A DNA stretch of 30,949 nucleotides from a virus: the IMG/VR virus record IMGVR_UViG_3300035670_000919, positions 1 through 30,949 of that record, one strand, 5' to 3'. Positions within the stretch are counted from its first letter, which is position 1; the number at the start of each line of letters is the position of its first letter. A model generated the notes under the pieces. The model searched no databases. It worked only from the letters and a program-made list of their open reading frames with translations, and was not told the DNA's origin. A program made the position numbers and the translations under genes. Positions 1,737-21,869 of the stretch are shown here, in pieces.

Positions 1737-3032
1737 ATGGCTGGAGAAGTAGACCCTAATCAGGACAACAACCAACTCCTAGCGCTGATTAAGCGCTTGC
1801 GTGCTGGTGGTATGTCCCAAGACGAGGTGATGAAGTTATTTGGCCCACAACTTGGCATAAACAACCAGCCAGACCAAGCAGCCTTGTTCCAGCAATACCG
1901 ACCTACTTGGTTGCAGGTTGAGGGTATTCCAGACCCAATGGACATTAGAAAGTCCATTGCAAAGATGGTTGAAGATGGCACTCCAGAGTGGCAAATTAAA
2001 CAGGACATTATTAACTCAATTGAGAGTGGCAATGCTCCAGCAAACATAACTTCAAAAGATTTGTTTGATTTGACCAGCACATTGATGAGTGAAAAGCAGT
2101 CGCATACGACAGCGTTGTCGCAACCATCGAATCAACCGTATTGGCAACAGATTGGTCTTCGTGACCCAAATGCTCGTTTCACTCCACAGGATGTGTTTCC
2201 GTTCATTGGTGAGATGGGTGGCGCTATTGAACAGGCTAGACCTTCATATAAAACTGGTGCTGTTGGTAGCGGAGCAAAACTTCCATACGATTCTGCATAC
2301 GACCAATCAATGGATGCTCTTGGTCGTATGGGTGCACGTGGTGTTTCGCAAGAAGCGGTATCTGGAAAGCCGGCAGGATTTGCTGATGCACAGAGCAATA
2401 TGACTATTGCTCAACGTAACTACAACACAGCAAAGCAAATGTTGACTACTGCTACACCTGAGAATCGTGATTCAGCAAAGCAGGCTTTGAAGGATGCTGA
2501 AAAGAATTTGAATGCAATGAAGAGTATTTTTGACAAACTGAATAACCAGTTCAAGTCTTCTCAGAAGGAAAAGAGTCAGCAACGCTCAAGTGAAATGCGT
2601 GGTGCTTCAAATATTCTTAAAAGTGCTGCTGGTCCAAAAGTTGGTCTTGATAGAAGAAAAGAAACACTTGATGCAGCGAAAGCAGCATACGAAAAAGACC
2701 CCGGAAATGATTTTAAGTACAATCAATACTTGAGTGCTCAAACGAACTACACAAACTTTCTGGAAAAGAATCAATCAAAGATTCAAGAGGCACAAAGAAT
2801 TGCAGCACAGGGTGAGGACTACAAGACTGTTCCCGATATTGCTAAACAAAAGTATATTGGTCCTGCTGGTGGTGAATCAACAATGGCTCGTACATACGAC
2901 CCATTTGCAATGCTCGCAAGAAAAGCACTTGAAACAAAAGGTCAAAAAGCAATAGAGAAGGCTGGTTACACACCGTTTATGGTTGATTTAGCAAACTACC
3001 TGCAAGGTCTGAACGTAACGAAGGGTAAGTAA
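1737..3032 (+). CDS. Hypothetical virion protein, charged helical
   Basis: 431 residues starting MAGEVDPNQDNNQ; the ribosome-binding site is weak, a distant AGGT before ATG 1737. The N-terminal 120 residues look globular and include a repeated short helix pattern (GMSQDEVMKLFG, then DGTPEWQIKQDI). The middle (about 215-370) is a Lys/Gln/Ala-rich coiled coil. The C-terminus (EKAGYTPFMVDLANYLQGL) looks like a short docking helix. No known enzyme motif was seen. It sits directly before the giant protein, sharing one base (TAATG), so it is probably made with it and packaged in the same particle; that last step is inference. Confidence 0.6.
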   Translation: MAGEVDPNQDNNQLLALIKRLRAGGMSQDEVMKLFGPQLGINNQPDQAALFQQYRPTWLQVEGIPDPMDIRKSIAKMVEDGTPEWQIKQDIINSIESGNAPANITSKDLFDLTSTLMSEKQSHTTALSQPSNQPYWQQIGLRDPNARFTPQDVFPFIGEMGGAIEQARPSYKTGAVGSGAKLPYDSAYDQSMDALGRMGARGVSQEAVSGKPAGFADAQSNMTIAQRNYNTAKQMLTTATPENRDSAKQALKDAEKNLNAMKSIFDKLNNQFKSSQKEKSQQRSSEMRGASNILKSAAGPKVGLDRRKETLDAAKAAYEKDPGNDFKYNQYLSAQTNYTNFLEKNQSKIQEAQRIAAQGEDYKTVPDIAKQKYIGPAGGESTMARTYDPFAMLARKALETKGQKAIEKAGYTPFMVDLANYLQGLNVTKGK

Positions 3033-6000
3033 TGGCTGTTGACCCAAATCAACAATTCCTTGACCAATTGAAGAGTATTGCTGCGGCAAAACCTTTGCCG
3101 ACAGCACCAATGGCTACAACGGCTAGCACAACGTTGTCAAAGGCTCAGTTGGGTTTTAATGACTACCGTCTTAACTCCATTGCCAGTGCACCCAACCTTA
3201 GGAACAGAATCCAAGAAATTGCTGCTGGTGAGCCGCAGTTAAATACTGTTCAAAAGATTTTTAGCAATCCAATTGTTGGAAATGCGTTAAAGCCCTTAAT
3301 TGCCCTTGACACTGGTCGTCGTGCAACCATTTCCGCTGTGCGAGAAATTGCTGATGCAATGGATAGCAATCCAGAAACTCGTGCAAGGTTTGGTGACTTT
3401 ATTCAGCAGGCTAAAGACCCTGCATATGGCTTTGGTACAGCGTTTCCAATTAGTGGTTGGAAGGGAAGAATCATTGGTCTTGTTGGAGACATTGCATTAG
3501 ACCCAATTACATATTTGTCTCTTGGTACAAATGTTCCGGGTAAACTTGCAATTGAAGGAGCAGAACAACTAACCAAACAGGCTACTCGTCAGTTGGTTTC
3601 TGGTGGTGCTTCACGTATCGCTGGTCGTTCTTCACGAGAGGCTCTTGCAAGATTCGTTGAGAAACGAATGCTTGCATCAAACCTCGTTGAAGGTTCAGTC
3701 AAGTACAGCGACCAAGAAATTGCTCGCACACTTGGGGATGTTGCGGCAAGAGGTGTTCGTGCTGTTCCACAGCAGATTGCAATGGAGACTGGTCTTCGTT
3801 CAGCAAAGCCTGCTTTCTATTTGTTTGGTGGTCAGGTAAAGATTGCTGGCTCTGGTCCTATTGCTGACCTTATTGAGCGTGGCATTATCAAATCTCGAAT
3901 GGGATTTGTTAATACCCGTATTGGTGGCAAGATTCAGGAAGCGTTTACTCCAATGGGTATTGATGCCGTTGGACAGATTGACCCAAAGATTATTAGGCAG
4001 TCACGTATTGATTTGGCACGTGGTAAAGCAGTTGACTCACGTCGTTCGTTGCAACTGCTTGCTGGTGAAGAAGAGCGTCGTATTGGTTTTAACGTAGCAC
4101 TTGATATTGCTAACAGAAAACTAGACCCATTGTTTAAAAATTCTGAAATGGAAAACTTTGGCAAGACTGTCCACGAGTTGTTGGAAAATCCAAGTCCTGA
4201 CCGTTTGAACGGTGCACCTGCTGGGGAGAGAAAACTTGCTGCAAGCATTAGAGAAACGCTTTCTCAGATGCACGATGAAATTGATAGAACCATGAAGGCT
4301 ATTGACCCTAACTATAAGTTGGGTAAAATCGAAGAGTACTTCCCACACATGCTTAGTGACCAAGGCATTAAGCACATTCGAGATACTTCAAATCCATGGG
4401 TTGCAGACATTTTGAAGTTTATGTCTATTGACATTACAAACCCTGCAAGTTCATTTAGGTCACGAAACATTCGTGCTGGAATGGAGTTCTTCGGGGTAAC
4501 TCTTGTTAAAGAAGATTTGACGGTTGCAAAACTTAATGCAATTGCTAAAAAGAAATTAGGCTTTGACCTGTTTGAAACAGATGCAAAGAGAGTTCTTGCA
4601 AAGTATGGAACTCACTATTCAGAACAAATGGGTTCTGCTGCATTTATGCAAAGTCTTTTGCGTAATCCAGAATTGATGGATTACATCAAGACTGAAATTT
4701 CTTATGACCCAGATGTTATGGCAAAGTTTGCATCAACGGTCTCTGAACGTCTTAATGCTGTGCAAGCCTCAGATGCAGAAATTAGTGAACTTCTTGATAC
4801 AACACTTGAAAGCATTGATTCGATACTGGCACAAGCCACAGAGGCTGGTGTAAAAGAATTGGATGCTGTTTCAAGGAATCTTGTAACAGACGATATTCTT
4901 GCAGCCAACGAACAAAAGATTATGCAGGCACATGGTCAACTTGTTGCAGCACTTGGCAAGGCTTACGAGTCACGTTATTTGGCTTATGGTGAACTTGGTA
5001 TGGCTCAAGATGTGGTTGCACAGATTGAAGCAAAGTTTCAGGCAATTAGTGAACGATTGAATGCTCTTCCGGGCGACTTGTTGGAATCATTCAATAGCGG
5101 AAAAGTAAATGAGATTTCACGACCTTATGTTGAGGGTTTGACAACGGGAATGAATCCTGTTGACAGACTCAATGCAATGACGGGTATTGACAGAATTCAA
5201 AGAATTGAACAAGTTAAAAAAGAAGTTGAGTTCCTAAAAAGGGAACTTAGAACTATTGCTGAGTCGTACAGCGTTGCTAAAGCATTTGGCAACGACATTG
5301 GAGACTTCTACAATGCGTTAGATGATGCAATTACTGGTCAAGCAGGTGTTGACTTCCCTGAACGAGTTCTTGATTCATTTGACATTTCAGAAGGTTTGCG
5401 TCGTTCTATCAAAGAGAAGATGGAAGCACTCCCAATGTCAAAGAGCAGGAAAGGTGGACAACCAAGTTTCTATCTCGGCAAGACGGTTGGTGAGTGGTGG
5501 GGTACTAAGGTTGCTGCACTAAACCCAGAGGCTCAAGCGTTGCAACAACTTCTTGACCCAAACAAGGTAATCAAGAAGAGCGCACTTGAGAAACTTACTC
5601 TTGAAGAGGTTAGAAATCGTCTAATTCGTTCAACCACAACTGGCGACAATCTTCTTGATATGCAGGAAGCAGTAACTTGGTTGATATTACGTGACTTAAG
5701 GGCTAACCCAGAACTTGCTAAAGATTTGATTGCTGGCAATGTGGACAATGCAATAGTGCGACGACTTGCTGGACTTCGTTCTCTGAACGAAGAGGTTGGT
5801 CGAATGAATGATGTGTTGCAGAGAATTGCTGTTGGTTTGTCTGATGACGACATTGTTGTCGTTGATGACCTTGTTACTGAATTAAGTGAAGTAAGAGCAA
5901 AACTTAACGAGAACATAATTGAACGTGCAAACATGGCTGGTGCTGATGTTATGTCAACACTTCAATTGGAAATGGTTCAATCAAACTTTGAACTTGCATG

Positions 6001-9000
6001 GCTTGGTAAAACTGGACAAATGTCTCAACGAGATATTGACGAGTTTGTTTTAGAATTAACCGCTGCTGGTGAAGTGGATATTGCAAACCTGTTGGATGAA
6101 CAGTATTCAACTGGTGCGACATATGAACAGTTCCAAGAAGCAATCAATCAACTCACACAATGGAGACAGAATAATGCACGTGGATTGGGTTCTGTTGAAC
6201 GTGCATACGATGTTCAGAAGTATGACAGTTTGGGTAAAGAAATTCTTGATTTAGAAGCACAACAAAAAGAACTTCAAGACAAGATAAAGACTGCTGGTAT
6301 GAGGCTTTCTGGTAATGAAAGAACTGCATACAACAAATTGCAAAGGTATGGAAGTTACCAAGAACTGACACGTGACTACTCAGACCGTGCATTGTCTTAC
6401 TACCTCATATCAGAAACAAACATGCACTTTAAGAGGCTTGCATCTGCGATGGCGCCTCTTGGAACAATTGTTGATGCTGGTGTTTGGCAACGTGTGTTCC
6501 ATGAGGTTGCTCGCCAACAGGTTGCTGGAGCAAAGCAGTTCTCTCGTGAGTTTGGTGGAGTGGTAGAACTTCTTCGTGAAGTTCAAACCGTTGTGCAAGC
6601 AGGAACTGCTGGAGAACAATGGGCAATACTTCGTGAGCAAATGGTTAAGTTGCTCAACTCTGAAAATGGAGATTCAGTACGCAAGTTCTTCCCAGACTTT
6701 GATTTGATTCTCAACCGCAGTGGTATGAAGGAAATTTCACGACTGCATGCCCAAAACCCACGAAGCCAAGAGATTGTTAGTCGCATGCAAGAGATGCTTG
6801 GCATCATTGATACGGCAGAACAGACTGGTGCACGTAGTGGTCGTGCTGCCATGGAGACTGGCAGAACTGCTGGACCAAGGGCTAGCACAAGTGCAGTTGT
6901 TGAGACAATTGATGCAACGAGGGATGCGATGGGTGCCATGCGTGTTCAACGTGTTGCCTCAAGGGAAGAGCAGTTGGCAAAGATTGCTTCTAGGTCACAA
7001 AACCTTTCTGCTGAAAAACTTTACAACCAAATAAGAAAAATTCTTGACGATGAAGCATCACCAGTTGCTGATGCTCTTGCAAGAACGGAGCAGGGCGAGG
7101 TGATTGGAAGAATTACCAACAGGTTTGAAAACGAATTGCCATACTCGGTTGAAGGTAGAGAAATTCAAATGGTTCGCCCTGAGGTGACTGGAAACTTTGT
7201 TCAGACGCTTACTCCAGCAGAAAAGTTTGGTAGAGAACTTGAGATGTTGAAGAAAGAATGGGATGAGATTACCGACCGACTCAAGAAAGAACGTGCCGCT
7301 TCAAAGGAAGCAGCACAAAAGGCTGGTATTGAATTTGGTGTAAAGACCGCATCACGAACCGTCAGAGGTCGTGTTGGTGGTGGACTGTCGTATGGTTTTG
7401 CTGGATTGTTTTCTGATGCAATCAAAGCATCTTCGTCTCGCACAAAGGTTCGAATCTTCTTTGGTGAGTTGCTTGGTGGTACGTTTGAGTACAACGCCGT
7501 TGCAGACCCAATGAAGTTTGACATTGCAACTATTGGTCGTGAAATCCGACAGGCTGCAAGAATTAAGGAAGTTCCATTTGAGGGTTCTTATGCTGGTAAG
7601 ACTCTTGCTGCAAGCCAAGAGAGAATTAGCACTCTTCTGAACTTGATTGACCCAGAGATTGATACAGCAAAAATTGTTGGTGCAGAGATTGTTCCGGGTC
7701 TTGACCGTTCAGCAGGTAAGGGTGGAGCGGGTGTGTGGGGTCCACTTGCTTATGCAGACCAAGCAGAACAACTTGCCAAGGAGTTGCGTGCGTCAATAGC
7801 ACAGGATGCTGAGTTGTTGCAGGCAGCAAACCTTGCTGGTGTAAATGCTCAGGCTGTGCGAGACGGAACGATGACCCTAGAGCAGATGCAGGCTGTTGCA
7901 GAGAACTTGCGAACAATGTATGAGTTGGAGCCAACTGTAACCACGTGGCAGAACGCTGGTAAGCGTGGTATTGCTTTGATGTATGCAGATGCCGACCCAT
8001 CAATCTGGGCTAAGTTCCCAGAAGATGTAAGGCAGATGATTCGTGACTACAGAAACCTGAAGGCCAATGTTGCACGTTTGGAAGCAAATCCTTTGCTTCC
8101 AGTTGCCCAGAAGCGTCAACAGTTTTTTAAGATTGCTCAGAAACTTTCTGGTAGCGACTTGCACATGTTGCAGAATCAGGCTGGTGAGTTTGTAATAGAC
8201 CCATTCTCTCGTCCTAAGGATTTCATTTGGAACGAAGCACGACCGGGTGCTGTTGATGTTGCTGGTAATCCAATCACATCAAACATTGATACAAACTTGC
8301 TTGACAGACACTTCCAGAGCATGGGTAACTCAACTGTCACGTTGTCGCCAACTGGTGAAGCAATTATTTCTCAGGGTGGTGTTTCACGTGCGCCAAGAGG
8401 ATTACAGCATGAAGTTTACCAATTAGATGTTGTTAACTTCAAAGAAGCATTAGACGCATATAACCGTGGTACTGGTTCATTCATCTTTATAGATGAAAGT
8501 GGAAATACAATTCAACTTCAGGATGCAATTGAGAAGTACTCAACAGGTGAAGCGTTTACCACGCTAAAGCCAATTCAAAGTGGAAACATTATTTCAGAAG
8601 GAATTGGTTCCAAAGATTCAATTGGGTTGCAGAATGCACTTGTTCGTTCTGGCAGCACATATGACCCCGGCAAGACTTGGGTTAGAGTTCCAGATGAAAA
8701 GCCAGTAGCAGAAGCAGCGTCGTATGCAACTGGTGCGATAGTTCAACCGGGCAAACCAGAAATGTTTATCAGGTTGCCTTGGGGCAACAACATTCCGGGT
8801 TATGGGCCTAGTCAGTTTGCGTTCACGCACAAAGGCAAACCATTGTCTTTCACGGAACAGGAATGGCATTCCTTGTTCCTGCCACCACAGGTAGCGGAAG
8901 AACAAACTATTCGTCAACTTGAAGACCAGATTGCAAAACTTGAAAAGTTGAAGCCTGTTGTTCCTCAAGGTAAGGCTCTTGTTAGAAAAGTTGATAAGGA

Positions 9001-12000
9001 TAAAGTTGCTAAAATTGATGCACAGATTGAGGCAATCAATAAAAAAATTTCTGAGATATTTGAACGACCTGTTGATGTAAAGACGGTTCCTCAACTTCGA
9101 GCAGAAATAAAGAAACTTGAATTGAGGCTGCCTACAACTGCACGCAATTTGACCAAAGCACAAAAAGAGGCAGGGATACAGGTTGAAGCACAGATTGCTT
9201 CAAGACAGCGACAGATTGCAGTTATTTCTGCACGTGCTAATGCTGAGTCAAAGTTCAATTCACTCATTGAACAGTTGACACCAGAACTTGGTAAGGCTCT
9301 TGGTTTGTCCGATAGCGCATCACAGAACAAATCAAAGATTGCTGACGCTTTGGTTGAGCGCTGGCAGATTGTTAATCGTGGTAAAGATGTTGCTGAAGCA
9401 CGTTCAAAGGTTGTGCGAGCACGCTTTAATGCAAGCGAAGATGGGAAAATTGTCAGCGAATTAACCAAGGCTAAGAATGAAGTTTCCACTGCACAGTTTA
9501 CTGAGTACTTTAAAAATAGCAGGATGAAACTTGAGCAGGCTATCCAGTATCAGCAGGCTGCTGATGATGCACGTCTTACTTACGATATTAACAATAGAAC
9601 CAAAGACACGATTCGCCGTGTTGAAGATTTGCTTGGTGAGATACGACCACTTGTTGGTGACAATGTTCCAAGGATTCCGTATGAGACTGCTACTGCTGAA
9701 CAGCGACTAGCACAAGCCCAGTCAACTGTTGAGCGTAATGCTCAGCGTCAGGTTCTCAAAGACCAAATCAATCCTTTGATTGAAACCAAGCGTGGTCTTG
9801 AGGAACAACTTCAGACTGCCACGGTTGCTCAGTACTTACGTGATGAAACTGGTCGTGTTATGTACACGCCAGATGGACAGCCAAGATTCAAGAAGATGAG
9901 CCAGCAGGATGCTGAGAACATTATCTCATTGCAGAACGACTTGGCTGCTGTTGATGAGAAGATTGCAGCGACAACTGCTGACTTGGAGAAGTTGAATGCA
10001 TCTGCATCGGCACGTCAGTCAACTGAAGTTGCAGAAACAACTGTTGCCGATTTGCCGACTCAACTTGATGACCTTTCGTTTAATCTTCGACATGCGAAGT
10101 TGCAACCAGTCATTCAATCTAACCCTGCACTCAAGGAAGCACTCGGTGCTATAAGAAAAGAGTTTGGTGAGAAGTCACCACGTTACAGACAGTTTGAAGA
10201 GATGCTTTCTGTTCTTATGTTTGAAAGTGAACAGTTTGATGCACTTCAACTTGCTCAAAAGAAACTTGCTGACCTTGACGCTAAAGTAACAAAGAGTGTT
10301 CAGACCGCAGATGACGTTGTTGCCAGAAAGGCTGAAGCATGGAACAAGGCTCAGATTCTTTATGATGAAAATGCTGCACAAAGGTACTGGACTTTGCAGT
10401 ACGTTGATGCAGCACAGCAACGACTGGATAAGTTGAATGCCATTTCTACACGTGTTCGTGAGACATTGATTAAGAAGAAAGTAAATCCAAAGGATATGAC
10501 TTGGGTCAATGAAGTTGACATGATTACTGCTGAACTTTCACCAGTACTTGCCGGCATGAAGAACATGAAGATGGAAAAAAATATGCAGGTCATCATGACC
10601 CAGCGTGCAGAACAGTTGATTGAACATCAGACATTGCTTGCTGGTCTTTCCGATGCACAGAGAGACTTGGCTTATGCCCGTGGTCTTCAGCAGATGATTG
10701 GTCGTGGTGCTGGCAAAGAGGAACTTGTGCTAGCCGCACGTAGAGGAAACGTACCAGCAGAAGTTTTGAACGGTGTGAGAATTGATGAGATTCTCAAAGA
10801 GGGTTGGGTGCGCCTTGGTGGACCATATCAGAATCTTCAGGTTACACCTGAGATTGCAGAGATATTCCAGAACGCACACAGACTGATTGAACCAGACTCC
10901 GTTCGTGCGTTGTCCAACTTCCTTGGTTCATACACCAAGTTCTTCAAGGCTTATGCAACTGCTACACCCGGATTCCATGTTCGCAACGCAATATCAAACG
11001 GAATGATGTTGTTCTTTGGTGGTGGTCGTGGTGAGTTCTTGAAGGAAGGTCTTATCGTCTCACGCAAATGGACAGAGGCTCAGGGTGCTAATAAGACTTG
11101 GGAACAGTTCTTGCAGGAACTTCCAGAGGCACAGCGTGTCCACGCAAACGTGGCACGCATGTCAACAGCAGCATCTGGTGGTGGTGTGTACTCGGATGTG
11201 CTCAATGACATCCGCAACGGAGACCAATGGTGGAACATGAAGATACTTAAAGCGAGTCAGAAGTTTGGTCAGTTCGCAGACGACCACGCACGATTCATCT
11301 TTGGATACGACGCAAGTATGCAAGGATTTGATGTTGGCATGGCTGCGGCTCGCACAAAGAGATTCTTTGTTGACTACCAAGATGTGTCAACTGTTGACAA
11401 GGCTTTGCGTCAGGTCATTCCGTTCTGGATGTGGACTTCACGTAACTTGCCATTGCACATACAGAACATGTGGATGAACCCTAAGCCTTACGCAATCTAC
11501 AACTCGATTGTCCGCAACTTGCGTGATGACAAAGAGGGCGATGTTGTGCCTAACTACTTCAAGGAACTTGGTGCATTCAAGTTGCCATTTGGTAAGGACT
11601 TGTATGCGAACCCAGACCTTGGGTTCAACAGAATCGGACAAACTCTAAACGAGTTTTCCGACCCAGCACGACTCATGTCAAACGTGAACCCAGCGATACG
11701 AGTTCCAATTGAGTTGATGGGCAACAGGCAGTTGTATTCAAACAGACCATTCTCGTCAACACCTGTGCAAGTAGAGGGACCACTTGGTTCGGCATTACAG
11801 CCACTGGCACAAATGCTGGGCATGGGAACAACAAATGCTAAGGGTGAGAAATTTATCAACGATAAATTCTTCTACGGAGTTAGAAGCATAGCGCCAACTC
11901 TTGGAACGCTTGAGCGACTTGTTCCTTCAACAGAAACATATCAACAGAGAGGAACTGGTAATCAATGGCTTGGATTCGTTGGTGCTCCAGTGAAGCAAGT

Positions 12001-12094
12001 AACAGAACAGATGAAAGCATCAGAACTTACACGCCTCAAGAAATCTCTTGAAGCATTCATGAACGAACAGAAAGCGATTGGGAACATTGAATGA
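3032..12094 (+). CDS. Giant phage virion protein (3,020 aa), LPD38-like C-terminal region
   Basis: A single unbroken frame of 3,020 residues with ribosome-binding site AAGGG. Early on there is a hydrophobic patch near residues 145-165 (GDIALDPITYLSLG) and a YFPHMLSD motif near 430. Most of the middle is long charged helices and coiled coils, for example QLEDQIAKLEKLK and AQIEAINKKISEIF near 1960-2010. Around residue 2648 the motif TPGFHVRNAISNGMM, followed near 2800 by PFWMWTSRNLP, resembles the large polyvalent-protein-associated domain (LPD38 type) found near the C-terminus of giant phage proteins. No transglycosylase or polymerase motif was identified. Position between Ala/Gln-rich virion genes and the endolysin suggests an ejected internal protein or a tail-tube/core component. 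The family match is by motif memory, not search. Confidence 0.75.
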   Translation: MAVDPNQQFLDQLKSIAAAKPLPTAPMATTASTTLSKAQLGFNDYRLNSIASAPNLRNRIQEIAAGEPQLNTVQKIFSNPIVGNALKPLIALDTGRRATISAVREIADAMDSNPETRARFGDFIQQAKDPAYGFGTAFPISGWKGRIIGLVGDIALDPITYLSLGTNVPGKLAIEGAEQLTKQATRQLVSGGASRIAGRSSREALARFVEKRMLASNLVEGSVKYSDQEIARTLGDVAARGVRAVPQQIAMETGLRSAKPAFYLFGGQVKIAGSGPIADLIERGIIKSRMGFVNTRIGGKIQEAFTPMGIDAVGQIDPKIIRQSRIDLARGKAVDSRRSLQLLAGEEERRIGFNVALDIANRKLDPLFKNSEMENFGKTVHELLENPSPDRLNGAPAGERKLAASIRETLSQMHDEIDRTMKAIDPNYKLGKIEEYFPHMLSDQGIKHIRDTSNPWVADILKFMSIDITNPASSFRSRNIRAGMEFFGVTLVKEDLTVAKLNAIAKKKLGFDLFETDAKRVLAKYGTHYSEQMGSAAFMQSLLRNPELMDYIKTEISYDPDVMAKFASTVSERLNAVQASDAEISELLDTTLESIDSILAQATEAGVKELDAVSRNLVTDDILAANEQKIMQAHGQLVAALGKAYESRYLAYGELGMAQDVVAQIEAKFQAISERLNALPGDLLESFNSGKVNEISRPYVEGLTTGMNPVDRLNAMTGIDRIQRIEQVKKEVEFLKRELRTIAESYSVAKAFGNDIGDFYNALDDAITGQAGVDFPERVLDSFDISEGLRRSIKEKMEALPMSKSRKGGQPSFYLGKTVGEWWGTKVAALNPEAQALQQLLDPNKVIKKSALEKLTLEEVRNRLIRSTTTGDNLLDMQEAVTWLILRDLRANPELAKDLIAGNVDNAIVRRLAGLRSLNEEVGRMNDVLQRIAVGLSDDDIVVVDDLVTELSEVRAKLNENIIERANMAGADVMSTLQLEMVQSNFELAWLGKTGQMSQRDIDEFVLELTAAGEVDIANLLDEQYSTGATYEQFQEAINQLTQWRQNNARGLGSVERAYDVQKYDSLGKEILDLEAQQKELQDKIKTAGMRLSGNERTAYNKLQRYGSYQELTRDYSDRALSYYLISETNMHFKRLASAMAPLGTIVDAGVWQRVFHEVARQQVAGAKQFSREFGGVVELLREVQTVVQAGTAGEQWAILREQMVKLLNSENGDSVRKFFPDFDLILNRSGMKEISRLHAQNPRSQEIVSRMQEMLGIIDTAEQTGARSGRAAMETGRTAGPRASTSAVVETIDATRDAMGAMRVQRVASREEQLAKIASRSQNLSAEKLYNQIRKILDDEASPVADALARTEQGEVIGRITNRFENELPYSVEGREIQMVRPEVTGNFVQTLTPAEKFGRELEMLKKEWDEITDRLKKERAASKEAAQKAGIEFGVKTASRTVRGRVGGGLSYGFAGLFSDAIKASSSRTKVRIFFGELLGGTFEYNAVADPMKFDIATIGREIRQAARIKEVPFEGSYAGKTLAASQERISTLLNLIDPEIDTAKIVGAEIVPGLDRSAGKGGAGVWGPLAYADQAEQLAKELRASIAQDAELLQAANLAGVNAQAVRDGTMTLEQMQAVAENLRTMYELEPTVTTWQNAGKRGIALMYADADPSIWAKFPEDVRQMIRDYRNLKANVARLEANPLLPVAQKRQQFFKIAQKLSGSDLHMLQNQAGEFVIDPFSRPKDFIWNEARPGAVDVAGNPITSNIDTNLLDRHFQSMGNSTVTLSPTGEAIISQGGVSRAPRGLQHEVYQLDVVNFKEALDAYNRGTGSFIFIDESGNTIQLQDAIEKYSTGEAFTTLKPIQSGNIISEGIGSKDSIGLQNALVRSGSTYDPGKTWVRVPDEKPVAEAASYATGAIVQPGKPEMFIRLPWGNNIPGYGPSQFAFTHKGKPLSFTEQEWHSLFLPPQVAEEQTIRQLEDQIAKLEKLKPVVPQGKALVRKVDKDKVAKIDAQIEAINKKISEIFERPVDVKTVPQLRAEIKKLELRLPTTARNLTKAQKEAGIQVEAQIASRQRQIAVISARANAESKFNSLIEQLTPELGKALGLSDSASQNKSKIADALVERWQIVNRGKDVAEARSKVVRARFNASEDGKIVSELTKAKNEVSTAQFTEYFKNSRMKLEQAIQYQQAADDARLTYDINNRTKDTIRRVEDLLGEIRPLVGDNVPRIPYETATAEQRLAQAQSTVERNAQRQVLKDQINPLIETKRGLEEQLQTATVAQYLRDETGRVMYTPDGQPRFKKMSQQDAENIISLQNDLAAVDEKIAATTADLEKLNASASARQSTEVAETTVADLPTQLDDLSFNLRHAKLQPVIQSNPALKEALGAIRKEFGEKSPRYRQFEEMLSVLMFESEQFDALQLAQKKLADLDAKVTKSVQTADDVVARKAEAWNKAQILYDENAAQRYWTLQYVDAAQQRLDKLNAISTRVRETLIKKKVNPKDMTWVNEVDMITAELSPVLAGMKNMKMEKNMQVIMTQRAEQLIEHQTLLAGLSDAQRDLAYARGLQQMIGRGAGKEELVLAARRGNVPAEVLNGVRIDEILKEGWVRLGGPYQNLQVTPEIAEIFQNAHRLIEPDSVRALSNFLGSYTKFFKAYATATPGFHVRNAISNGMMLFFGGGRGEFLKEGLIVSRKWTEAQGANKTWEQFLQELPEAQRVHANVARMSTAASGGGVYSDVLNDIRNGDQWWNMKILKASQKFGQFADDHARFIFGYDASMQGFDVGMAAARTKRFFVDYQDVSTVDKALRQVIPFWMWTSRNLPLHIQNMWMNPKPYAIYNSIVRNLRDDKEGDVVPNYFKELGAFKLPFGKDLYANPDLGFNRIGQTLNEFSDPARLMSNVNPAIRVPIELMGNRQLYSNRPFSSTPVQVEGPLGSALQPLAQMLGMGTTNAKGEKFINDKFFYGVRSIAPTLGTLERLVPSTETYQQRGTGNQWLGFVGAPVKQVTEQMKASELTRLKKSLEAFMNEQKAIGNIE

Positions 12095-18490: not shown

Positions 18491-19002
18491 GGCATTTGCC
18501 TTTCTGTTTCTGTTGTAGATGAGAATTTCAGCGCACGAACAATATCGTACATATCTCGCATGGCACTTGCTAATGAGCCTCTTGCGTTACCTTGGTCGTA
18601 TGTAACGTCTTTCTCACCCTGAAATCGGATGGAAGAACCCATTGTGCCACGATGGCACATTGTCATAAGACGAACACGCTTACGCTCGGGATGTTGTGAT
18701 GGTGCAATCTCTTCATCTTTTTCACTCTTGATTGGAGAAGCCCAACCAACAGTACTGATTGCAAATCCACTGTAACCAGTTTCATACAACATAACTGCGT
18801 TGAATGTGTCGTCAAGCATTTCGTAAACATCTGTATCTTCTGCGATTTGCTTGATGATTGGAACTTCACCACGAACATAGTCAACAGCAAATAATAATGC
18901 TGGTGATTGCTCGAATGACTCTCCTAATTTTTCTGCTATCGCTTGGTCAATCTCTCGTAGAGTCTGCTCAAATTTTTCTGTGTAGTTTATTGGTGTATTC
19001 AT
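18487..19002 (-). CDS. Hypothetical protein, 171 aa
   Basis: Starts at ATG 19002 behind AAGGAGAAAG and overlaps the WhiB stop by four bases (ATGA). The N-terminal half is acidic and helical (EKFEQTLREIDQAIAEKLGE). A mixed middle follows (YETGYSGFAISTVGWASPIK) and then a basic segment (PERKRVRLMTMCHRGTMGSS). The C-terminus is a helix (SLASAMRDMYDIVRALKFSS). I do not recognise a family. Direct coupling to a WhiB regulator and to a small helical protein suggests a regulatory or early-phase role, which is weak inference. Confidence 0.6.
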   Translation of the reverse strand: MNTPINYTEKFEQTLREIDQAIAEKLGESFEQSPALLFAVDYVRGEVPIIKQIAEDTDVYEMLDDTFNAVMLYETGYSGFAISTVGWASPIKSEKDEEIAPSQHPERKRVRLMTMCHRGTMGSSIRFQGEKDVTYDQGNARGSLASAMRDMYDIVRALKFSSTTETERQMP

Positions 19003-19250
19003 TTGTGATTCTTTCTCCTTGGGTCTAGTTTTCCGTTTGTTAGTGTGATGCCACCCCAAATGCCCCACGAGTTGGTTGCTTTGCCGTAGGCAAGGCACTC
19101 ATCTTTTATGGAACATTCAGAGCAGATTGCTTTTGCTTTCTTCCATTCTCTTACTTTTTGTTTAGTTGGCGGCCATTCTGGAAACCACCAAATGGTTGGT
19201 TGGTCTTTGCAGTTTGCTTTAGCAAAGTCTATTGTTATCGGCTCAAACAT
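18999..19250 (-). CDS. WhiB-family iron-sulphur transcription regulator
   Basis: 83 residues with the WhiB cysteine pattern: Cys14, then Cys43-x2-Cys46-x5-Cys52, followed by GIWGG (63-67) and a basic tail (KLDPRRKNHK). The four cysteines hold a 4Fe-4S cluster in the family, and the GIWGG turn contacts the primary sigma factor of the host RNA polymerase. WhiB proteins are essentially confined to actinobacteria and their phages, so this gene is the best host marker in the window. It overlaps genes on both sides. It probably redirects host or phage transcription or blocks a host WhiB; target genes cannot be read from the sequence. Confidence 0.93.
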   Translation of the reverse strand: MFEPITIDFAKANCKDQPTIWWFPEWPPTKQKVREWKKAKAICSECSIKDECLAYGKATNSWGIWGGITLTNGKLDPRRKNHK

Positions 19251-19767
19251 CGGTGCTGAGTCGCAGTCTGGTAATCAATGTTTCAAGTACTCTTTCTGCC
19301 ATTGTGTTAGCCATATTGATTGATAGTTCCTCAATCCTGTTATTGATTATCTCGTGTATGTTCATTGAGTCTAAAGACGCATTGACCTGAGTTGTAATCA
19401 TTGAACGGAAACGTGAGTTGTTGATTATTGCACGTTGTAAACTTTCACTCACATTGTCTTCGTTGACTATTGAATCAGCAATCTCTGAATAGTCCATGTC
19501 ATCAAGAACATTACGCTTGATGTCATAGTAGTCAATTGACTCCATTACCCAGTCACGAATCTTGCGACTGAAGTCTCTGTCGTCGGTTACTTGGTCCGTA
19601 ACTTGACTAACAACATCTGCAACTGTTGGTATGCGACCATTTACCTGACGCTCCACCTGCTCAATGATTGTTGTTTCTAGTGATTGATTGAATAGTGATG
19701 GCATTGATGCGCTGTCAAGCGATACATCAAATTCCATTGCTTGTGGGATAAGTTTGATTGTTGTCAT
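19243..19767 (-). CDS. Hypothetical acidic helical protein, 174 aa
   Basis: Starts MTTIKLIPQAMEFDV at ATG 19767 behind a strong AGGAG and overlaps WhiB by eight bases. The sequence is acidic, rich in Asp, Ile, Asn and Ser, with repeated short helices (RKIRDWVMESIDYYDIKRNV, then DDMDYSEIADSIVNEDNVSE) and a C-terminal helix that includes RIEELSINMANTMAERVLET. There are no cysteines, signal peptide or known motif. It is the first gene of the WhiB subcluster and lies 27 bases after the amidotransferase stop. Confidence 0.6.
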   Translation of the reverse strand: MTTIKLIPQAMEFDVSLDSASMPSLFNQSLETTIIEQVERQVNGRIPTVADVVSQVTDQVTDDRDFSRKIRDWVMESIDYYDIKRNVLDDMDYSEIADSIVNEDNVSESLQRAIINNSRFRSMITTQVNASLDSMNIHEIINNRIEELSINMANTMAERVLETLITRLRLSTDV

Positions 19768-19794: not shown

Positions 19795-20775
19795 TTAGTA
19801 ATAACTTGGGTGTGTGTTTGTGCCAGACGGAATCTCGAATCCGTAGTTGGTGGTTGGCATTTCAGGTTCTTCCCACAATGCGTCCCAACAATTGCAAGTG
19901 TCGTACTGGCAGAACAAGCACGCACTGCAAATACCACAGTGTGTGCGAATCTCGTCAGCCGGCACTATCTCTTGTGACTCGCACAGATAGCACGTCACTT
20001 TGTTGTGTGTTGCGCTAACTGGGTCGCTGTACAACTCTGCAATCTCAAGGCACTCGTTGAATGTTGGTGACTGACTGACTAGTGAAGCCTCGTCATCGTA
20101 ATCAAACTTTGGATTAGAGCCAGTCCAACTAGATGTGTACTTGGTTGACTCGTAGCCATAGTCCCAACTGCTCCAACCAGAACCGTACATGCCTGAATAA
20201 CTGGCATAACGAATTGGTGCTTGTTTGTACGATGAGTTTGACCACCAGATATCTGAATCCCAGTGACCGTCTTTCTCGTTGACGATATACCAGTCATACT
20301 TTGCATCGTCATTGACAGTTAGGAATGCGAGTTTAGAACCCTTAGCCCAAGCAGCCATCTGCTGAAAGTATTCGTTGTCATCAAGAGAACTGATGCCACC
20401 GATAGCAGGCATAATGTCTTCTGCAAAGACTCTGGTATCTGAACGCAACTCGTTCTTCTCCATCTTGACTGGCAGTATGCCGTTGTGACCCATAACAGTT
20501 TGGCTGTCTTGACCTAACAAGAATGGGTGACAGTTATCAACGGTGTTAGTGCCGTGAGTTGTCCAACGGAAGTGAAAGATTGCAGGGCCTTGCATTGTCT
20601 TGCGTGCATCAACAAACTTGTTAGCAACTTCCTCAAAGTTCATACTGCGAACGATGTGAAGTTTCTTGCCTGTTGATATTGCGAAACCAAAGCCATCAGG
20701 ATTTGATTGAGCAGCAATCTTGAACCTGTCCATGTCTGGTGAGACATAATCAGGAATGAGTGTAAGTAGACACAT
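19795..20775 (-). CDS. Class II glutamine amidotransferase-like enzyme with Cys-rich C-terminal module
   Basis: 326 residues; the start MCLL is fixed because Cys2 is the N-terminal nucleophile of this Ntn-hydrolase family. Matching motifs are DGFGFAI (27-33), FHFRWTTHG (67-75), NCHPFLLG (81-88) and GHNGIL (96-101). Class II enzymes release ammonia from glutamine or cleave related amides. Beyond the catalytic domain is an aromatic insert (about 190-217) and a Cys-rich module with Cys262, 265, 280, 283, 286, 289, 294 and 296, probably binding two zinc ions. The amidoligase lies directly upstream, a pairing known from phage amidoligase neighbourhoods. A ribosome-binding site (AAAGGA) and a GC hairpin precede the start. 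Confidence 0.88.
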   Translation of the reverse strand: MCLLTLIPDYVSPDMDRFKIAAQSNPDGFGFAISTGKKLHIVRSMNFEEVANKFVDARKTMQGPAIFHFRWTTHGTNTVDNCHPFLLGQDSQTVMGHNGILPVKMEKNELRSDTRVFAEDIMPAIGGISSLDDNEYFQQMAAWAKGSKLAFLTVNDDAKYDWYIVNEKDGHWDSDIWWSNSSYKQAPIRYASYSGMYGSGWSSWDYGYESTKYTSSWTGSNPKFDYDDEASLVSQSPTFNECLEIAELYSDPVSATHNKVTCYLCESQEIVPADEIRTHCGICSACLFCQYDTCNCWDALWEEPEMPTTNYGFEIPSGTNTHPSYY

Positions 20776-20789
20776 GTGGTGTCCTTTCT

Positions 20790-20809
20790 GTGGGGGCTTG
20801 CGCCCCCAC
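20790..20809 (-). promoter_or_regulatory. GC hairpin with GCAA loop in the amidotransferase leader
   Basis: On the transcribed strand GTGGGGGC and GCCCCCAC pair around GCAA, a GNRA-type loop, ending a few bases before the AAAGGA ribosome-binding site and 15 bases from the start codon. No T tract follows. It could protect the 5' end, terminate weakly or control initiation. Confidence 0.5.
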
Positions 20810-20831
20810 GATTGTGTTTATGTTTGTGTGT

Positions 20832-20848
20832 AGTAAGACGGTCTTACT
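20832..20848 (-). repeat. 17-bp dyad repeat, copy A
   Basis: AGTAAGACGGTCTTACT; with flanking T and A the arms extend to nine bases. It overlaps the stop codon of the amidoligase and lies in the gap before the amidotransferase. One of six copies confined to 20832-24333. Confidence 0.75.
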
Positions 20849-21869
20849 AGATTACTTTTTCTGCAATGCGATGACGAAGAATCTCAAAGCGTGGTGAGTT
20901 GATTGCAGTCAACCATGAACTGAATGCAGGGAACAACAAGCCACCTTGCACAGCCTGTCGTGTCTCAACATCTTTGGTGTACTCAAACGATGCTTGAGCA
21001 AACTGCATAGCAGCCTGAACAGTCACAGGGTTGAGTGATGGGCGGAAGAAACGCAACTCGATAGTCGCTGAGTTCTGCAAATTGACAGCAAGGTAACGGC
21101 GATTGTTATGCACGTAACCTTTAGCCATTTGCAGAAGCGTCGTGCCCTTGACCATATCAGGACTATCCCAATCGCTGTAACTATTGAGAAACTGATTTAT
21201 GTCAAATGCAGCGAACTGGTGAGACTCACGACCAGCGAACTTGACAAGTGGTTCACGATTCTTGAAGATGAAGTAAATGAACTTCATCAAGTGCGCTTCG
21301 TTGACGAATGAATTGCGTGACAGGTGCAAGTGCAAGCCACAAGAGTGAGCCTTCCAAGAATGGAAACCCATTGTCTTGAGACCAGAGATTGCTTCCCAAT
21401 TGAAGTCATTCATGAAGAAGTCAAGTGTGCCGGGCTGAGTGACAATCTCGAATCCGTAATTCAATGAAGCGTCTGTCTTGAGATGCACAGTATCTACATC
21501 ACCAATGCGAGAAGCGTTGAGTACGTGACGAGCACCAGCGTTCAAATCGCCATTGACACACTCGGTCTCAATCTCTGCGCCAATGTACAACTCTGGTGTC
21601 AGAGTATTGGTCTTAGATGTTGAGTATGTGTCAACAAGACGATATGCACTACCGAACTCATTACCCCTGTGCATGAACACAAGACGGAATCGTTCGGAGT
21701 AACCGTGAATCAGTCTGCCCTCTGCTGGCTCGTAATCATCGAGACACGAGTTGGAACAAAAGCGATAACCATCATCACTTTCGTATGCATCACTTTCGTG
21801 AACCCCGTCTTCACAGACTAAACAACTGTAGTATCCGTCTTCGTCTGGTTCTTGTATTTGTCTTGGCAT
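20847..21869 (-). CDS. Amidoligase (glutamine synthetase-like fold) with N-terminal zinc finger
   Basis: 340 residues from ATG 21869 behind AGAGGT. Residues 16-42 form a zinc finger (Cys16-x2-Cys19, Cys38-x3-Cys42). The body shows the Amidoligase_2 pattern: IGAEIETEC (96-104) with metal-binding acids, TDASLNYGFEIVTQPG (132-147), HSCGLHLHLS (175-184) with the paired histidines, and NRRYLAVNLQ plus IELRFFRPSLN (256-280) supplying the conserved Arg and Glu. Members are predicted to join an amine to a carboxylate using ATP, making peptide tags, modified peptidoglycan or small metabolites. The downstream amidotransferase is the likely partner. The substrate is unknown. The zinc finger may recruit a protein or nucleic-acid target. 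Confidence 0.85.
   Translation of the reverse strand: MPRQIQEPDEDGYYSCLVCEDGVHESDAYESDDGYRFCSNSCLDDYEPAEGRLIHGYSERFRLVFMHRGNEFGSAYRLVDTYSTSKTNTLTPELYIGAEIETECVNGDLNAGARHVLNASRIGDVDTVHLKTDASLNYGFEIVTQPGTLDFFMNDFNWEAISGLKTMGFHSWKAHSCGLHLHLSRNSFVNEAHLMKFIYFIFKNREPLVKFAGRESHQFAAFDINQFLNSYSDWDSPDMVKGTTLLQMAKGYVHNNRRYLAVNLQNSATIELRFFRPSLNPVTVQAAMQFAQASFEYTKDVETRQAVQGGLLFPAFSSWLTAINSPRFEILRHRIAEKVI

Follow-up and report, generated by a model that had tools for sequence, protein, structure and literature searches.

Two adjacent genes in a leftward operon of the window (i.e., the whole stretch of viral DNA analysed here, the 30,949 nucleotides of IMG/VR record IMGVR_UViG_3300035670_000919, from a freshwater virus of bacteria) encode an amidoligase and a class II glutamine amidotransferase (GATase), both with intact active sites, and could constitute a single, two-part, glutamine-fed amidating enzyme, a reading to which we assign a probability somewhat short of even. 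According to this proposal, the GATase would hydrolyse glutamine by means of its N-terminal Cys2 and pass the ammonia to the amidoligase; the latter, endowed with the fold of glutamine synthetase (GS), would activate a carboxylate with ATP and convert it to an amide, and the Cys4 finger of the ligase and the eight-cysteine (Cys8) module of the GATase would serve as docking parts, selecting the target or holding the complex together. The target would likely be a carboxylate of host peptidoglycan precursors, or of a protein. The elements of the pair, all on the minus strand, are:

20847..21869, minus strand: coding sequence of the Amidoligase_2 enzyme, 340 aa (profile matches, AlphaFold2 model)
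21744..21824, minus strand: zinc-finger-like Cys4 module of the ligase, C16, C19, C38 and C42 (conservation)
20850..21602, minus strand: catalytic domain of the ligase, residues 90-340 (invariant residues and GS-type alignment)
20776..20846, minus strand: intergenic gap of 71 bases inside the leftward operon (read from the sequence)
19795..20775, minus strand: coding sequence of the class II GATase, 326 aa (profile matches, AlphaFold2 model)
20215..20775, minus strand: Ntn glutaminase domain, residues 1-187, with the Cys2 nucleophile (fold match, conservation)
20077..20214, minus strand: Tyr/Gly/Ser-rich linker, residues 188-233 (low pLDDT)
19888..19992, minus strand: eight-cysteine C-terminal module of the GATase (conservation)
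19798..19815, minus strand: C-terminal tail THPSYY of the GATase (same or nearly the same in close relatives)

Both open reading frames are intact, the ligase being transcribed first and the GATase second, and each start, as read from the sequence, is preceded by a Shine-Dalgarno-like element (GAGGT ahead of ATG-CCA for the ligase, AAAGGA ahead of ATG-TGT for the GATase); the 359-aa ligase of the ORF list is an in-frame upstream extension, the relatives agreeing on the start at MP. The reading frames and the gap confirm the arrangement described in the first-pass annotation, namely an amidoligase and a class II GATase 71 bases apart in one leftward transcript, and the motifs reported there are all present (GAEIETE, HLHL and ELRFFR in the ligase, Cys2 and GHNG in the GATase). 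Purifying selection acts on both genes, dN/dS against close relatives being about 0.23 for the GATase and about 0.15 for the ligase; their conservation goes far beyond chance and, together with the structural models and these ratios, rules out that they are chance or decayed genes.

The neighbours of the pair in the operon are genes for WhiB, an SLT-type lysozyme domain, an exonuclease, the DnaB helicase, a primase and RusA. The presence of the WhiB-like regulator (window 18999-19250, minus strand; PHROG 472, E 6e-13) suggests that the host is probably an actinobacterium, and the association with replication genes suggests that the pair is probably made early in infection. Immediately downstream, the GATase is followed by a gene for a 174-aa protein of no known family (window 19243-19767, minus strand), which recurs in 78 of 180 GATase loci. 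Elsewhere, a single ORF of 3020 aa (window 3032-12094, plus strand) spans nearly one-third of the window and may encode a structural protein, perhaps one internal to the virion, and a predicted 446-aa protein (window 28036-29376, plus strand) has long Thr/Ser-rich repeats and no Pfam match. Neither member of the pair matched any PADLOC defence model, and the idea of an anti-phage defence system was dropped.

For both proteins the Pfam matches are modest and the PHROG matches strong. The ligase exceeds the cut-off of Pfam Amidoligase_2 (PF12224) by a narrow margin (23.1 bits against 22, E 8e-5), its membership being backed by the match to PHROG 2443, “amidoligase enzyme” (E 9.7e-6); it also matches PHROG 16683 (E 4.5e-26). 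Its AlphaFold2 model (mean pLDDT 88.5, pTM 0.86) has the fold shared by GS and glutamate-cysteine ligase (GCS), and over residues 90-340 the best structural match is YbdK (Z 12.2, 216 residues, rmsd 3.6), the glutamine synthetases scoring about 12, plant glutamate-cysteine ligase (GCL) 11.3 and GmaS 11.1, Z values that are above the background quoted by the tool for unrelated proteins, yet not high. Thirteen residues (G97, E99, E101, E141, G178, H180, H182, R214, R258, N263, T269, E271 and R273) are identical in 51/51 non-redundant relatives, among them those of the catalytic motifs GxExE, HxH and ExR of Amidoligase_2; in an alignment with glutamine synthetase, itself weak (E 0.82), GxHxHxS, R..VN and IExR line up. 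Family and intact active site of the ligase are thereby upheld. In some relatives a second, shorter amidoligase lacking the zinc finger is encoded upstream, some 300-450 bases from the main pair (L011:3145-3957, L035:3134-3940, L036:3632-4447, L046:3617-4423, L051:3742-4392 and L084:3993-4610), keeping the motifs GxEx(E/F), GFE, HIH/HVH and VExR; the window yielded no such second copy.

The GATase scores 19.9 bits (E 3.7e-4) with Pfam GATase_4 (PF13230), under the cut-off of 23, and is on this account classified as a class II GATase rather than as a member of GATase_4; it matches PHROG 25883 with an E of 5e-42. Its AlphaFold2 model is confident at residues 1-187, and residues 2-187 match the glutaminase domain of GlmS with Z 14.2-14.3 (1xff: 171 residues, rmsd 3.7) and EgtC with Z 14.0. 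The residues C2, R70, T73, H97, N98 and G99 are kept in 46/46 non-redundant GATases and D113 in 45/46, so that, though the Pfam score stays below the cut-off, the Ntn fold and the universal Cys2 sustain the assignment and the integrity of the active site; indeed, structure prediction of each protein alone yielded the expected fold with no broken active site. By alignment, R70, T73, H74, N98, G99 and D113 correspond to residues of GlmS whose roles in glutamine binding are established, which counts in favor of the two-part enzyme. On the other side of the ledger stands W71, the counterpart of the channel-gating Trp of GlmS: of 46 relatives, 20 have Trp and 21 have Ile at this position; to our knowledge, this Trp is absent also from PurF and AsnB.

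These structural matches also bear on a different scheme, in which the ligase would write a mark and the GATase-fold enzyme would erase it: the former would couple a γ-glutamyl or comparable group to an amine through ATP chemistry of its own and the latter would hydrolyse it off, a host step intervening between the two. EgtA/EgtC and PuuA/PuuD act in this manner at two ends of one pathway. The structural kin of the ligase are in fact γ-glutamyl ligases (YbdK, GCL, GmaS and GS), and that YbdK, plant GCL and GmaS take amines other than ammonia counts against the amidating enzyme; EgtC, a γ-glutamyl hydrolase, shares with GlmS the rank of best match to the GATase (Z 14.0 vs 14.3), and the GATase of a related cassette was taken as degradative in a paper on a Pseudoalteromonas phage (PMC5498523). 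However, two enzymes that on their own make and break the same bond would run a futile cycle, a search around the pair revealed no additional conserved enzyme of a pathway, and by sequence profiles the GATase is nearest to GlmS/PurF.

What other enzymes might the pair require? Neither γ-glutamyl cyclotransferase (PF06094) nor the second ligase COOH-NH2_lig (PF14395) was found in any of 44 records (the window and 43 relatives, many of them fragments), the tf and phiEco32 controls being positive for both, and the possibility that the window carries the full five-gene cassette of those phages was discarded on this account; no ATP-grasp ligase was found among the window proteins scanned, a subset of its ORFs. 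Since cyclotransferase and second ligase family are missing from these 44 records, two enzymes seem to suffice, and a synthase thus suits the pair better than a multi-step pathway. The amide is the chemical currency that both enzymes share. A glutamine-fed ligase needs just two enzymes, and the writing and erasing of a γ-glutamyl group an extra step; we favor the former and consider the latter unlikely.

The pairing of the two genes was surveyed from either side. The GATase seed matched 305 relatives, of which 80 were kept, and the ligase seed 436, of which 80 were kept, yielding 57 distinct, newly fetched loci; the two sets represent the closest relatives and overlap each other. The ligase adjoins the GATase in 80 of 82 distinct GATase loci, a count that includes one contig (L071) holding only the end of the ligase, the two unpaired loci being a fragment of 7.9 kb and the locus of a Bifidobacterium phage whose GATase has 166 residues; reciprocally, the GATase adjoins the ligase in 56/56 distinct ligase-seeded loci having room for it, the 57th ending at the contig edge. 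In 96 of 97 pairs the ligase lies upstream of the GATase; the two genes share a strand in 97/97, and the median gap is 11 bases. The pairing is therefore close to obligate, and the joint occurrence anticipated in the first-pass annotation is borne out, these loci containing no group of relatives in which the two genes are never together. Two phages count against the two-part enzyme. In Clostridioides difficile phage AR1086-1, the true counter-example, the ligase stands alone, the 130 kb of sequence containing no relative of the GATase; in Bifidobacterium phage BP742P1, a short GATase is encoded and the partial record of 32 kb lacks a ligase.

Much of this sample is a single lineage, because the DnaB gene of the window recurs in 100 of 180 GATase loci. 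Could the two then be separate helper genes of nitrogen metabolism, lying side by side merely through joint inheritance? Most of the fetched loci do form one syntenic freshwater lineage, and some authors call these genes auxiliary metabolic genes (PMC10580990, PMC10945688), but this explanation, which we regard as quite improbable, is at odds with the occurrence of the adjacent pair in seven or more genome contexts unrelated to one another, including Marvin mycobacteriophages, the OM43 podoviruses MEP401/MEP402, a spring podovirus, two human-gut phages and a Paludibacteraceae (Bacteroidales) prophage. Furthermore, the protein distances of GATase and ligase are correlated (r = 0.94), and the partial correlation remains 0.79 given the DnaB gene, i.e., after allowing for the shared genome. 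Contexts, correlation and pairing counts all speak for the two-part enzyme. A scan of genomes with close GATases returned a single pair and a single outgroup: the pair, on a Paludibacteraceae MAG contig (L104:5031-6543), has no cysteine modules and lies beside phage-like genes, probably in a prophage, and the outgroup, a chromosomal class II GATase locus (L105), has no amidoligase nearby.

The two cysteine modules, which the first-pass annotation had presented as unusual, are both real. That of the ligase has the spacing C16-x2-C19-x18-C38-x3-C42, the four positions being Cys in 50, 48, 49 and 47 of 51 non-redundant relatives, respectively; C42 is replaced by His in 3/51, which would be the exchange of ligand type expected of a metal ligand, and several relatives bear extra CxxC pairs in their ligases. 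Such a finger is common, rather than unusual, on phage amidoligases, and the combination of the pair with both modules is already present in the published Marvin phages, so that of the earlier claim the presence of the modules stands and the rarity of the finger does not.

The module of the GATase has the pattern C-x2-C-x14-C-x2-C-x2-C-x2-C-x4-C-x-C, found in 69 of 76 GATases, with all eight Cys kept in 39/39 non-redundant relatives having the module; it is absent from the OM43, spring and gut phages and from the short Bifidobacterium protein. A known family was sought for it in Pfam and dismissed, nothing scoring over the cut-off. Our guess from the cysteine pattern is that it holds two predicted Zn sites, an Fe-S cluster being a possible alternative. 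The linker that joins it to the enzyme (pLDDT < 50 at residues 189-233) is, judging from the model, probably flexible or disordered, and the module itself is followed by C-terminal tails that are specific to individual clades, e.g., THPSYY. The GATase of Pseudomonas phage tf (L183:10145-11740) ends in another Cys-rich stretch (GCAQC ... CCGEC), and this difference suggests that phage GATases may have gained C-terminal Cys modules more than once.

Metal-binding modules on both enzymes suggest recognition of a macromolecule and are, together with the conserved THPSYY tail, what would favor a pupylation-like tagging, in which the ligase would couple a peptide, or a single amino acid, to a protein of host or phage, the Zn modules would read the target and the GATase would edit or supply an amide end. 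Indeed, the Pup ligase PafA and the amidoligase share a broad GS-like class, and a distant tie is still compatible with the fact that PafA/Dop are not among the matches of the searches run. On the other hand, no small neighbour is conserved beside the pair beyond the window's own phage lineage, so that a shared tag peptide was rejected as a candidate, and tagging seems to us a quite improbable explanation. THPSYY was likewise rejected as a mark common to other phage proteins, no further ORF bearing it among the loci fetched for comparison.

Returning to the glutamine-fed enzyme, an extended form of it can be contemplated, albeit as a rather doubtful proposition: a widespread branch of freshwater actinophages would possess a minimal, self-contained, glutamine-dependent amidation machine, whose Cys4 and Cys8 adaptors, the latter an invariant and previously undescribed module on the amidotransferase, would jointly anchor it, early in infection, to a single specific macromolecule of the host. 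Cell-wall modification has long been proposed for phage amidoligase cassettes, and a limited literature search found no tested substrate. The window's branch is the simplest form seen, its members being marked by the invariant eight-cysteine module; since, in addition, the two genes are almost never apart, it offers a clean two-protein system for learning what such cassettes do, for which the Marvin phages of Mycobacterium smegmatis are a ready laboratory model.

Among known systems, EgtA/EgtC of ergothioneine synthesis resembles the pair in combining a GCS-fold ligase with a class II GATase-fold hydrolase, EgtC being among the best fold matches, and belongs to a chromosomal pathway with further enzymes. 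MurT-GatD and AsnB/LtsA, which amidate carboxylates of peptidoglycan precursors, are parallels only in their way of working, a ligase being fed by a glutamine amidotransferase; their families differ from those of the window pair: MurT belongs to the Mur ligases and GatD to the class I GATases. By analogy with the amidation of peptidoglycan glutamate by MurT-GatD (PMC3267633), and with the cell-wall modification proposed for a related phage cassette (PMC5498523), peptidoglycan is a likely target.

Amidoligase-GATase pairs in phages have already been published (PMC10580990, PMC3890496, PMC5498523). The cassette of phiEco32/LUZ24/tf, consisting of COOH-NH2 ligase, Amidoligase_2, GATase, ATP-grasp and γ-glutamyl cyclotransferase, likewise has Amidoligase_2 followed by a class II GATase beside replication genes, with a distant profile likeness to the window pair (hhalign probability 85% for the ligase and 57% for the GATase), but differs in having the cyclotransferase and second ligase; moreover, the tf ligase has no N-terminal Cys4 finger. 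The OM43 phages MEP401/MEP402 have an adjacent pair and a ligase with a Cys-rich stretch (PMC10580990), unlike the window in that the eight-cysteine module is missing from their GATase. The closest counterpart is Marvin gp105-gp106 (cluster S, Marvinvirus), annotated merely as glutamine amidotransferase domain proteins: amidoligase and class II GATase are adjacent and in the same order, the N-terminus of the ligase is Cys-rich and the GATase carries the same eight-cysteine tail, the identity with the window proteins being about 30% (ligase) and 36% (GATase); the Marvin ligase differs by its N-terminal Cys pattern and by an additional C-terminal region exceeding 100 residues. Given the published pairs and this shared build, including the eight-cysteine tail, the window pair belongs to a known kind, of which its branch, to judge from sequence comparison, appears to be a stripped-down, two-gene form with a double metal module, now more sharply defined.
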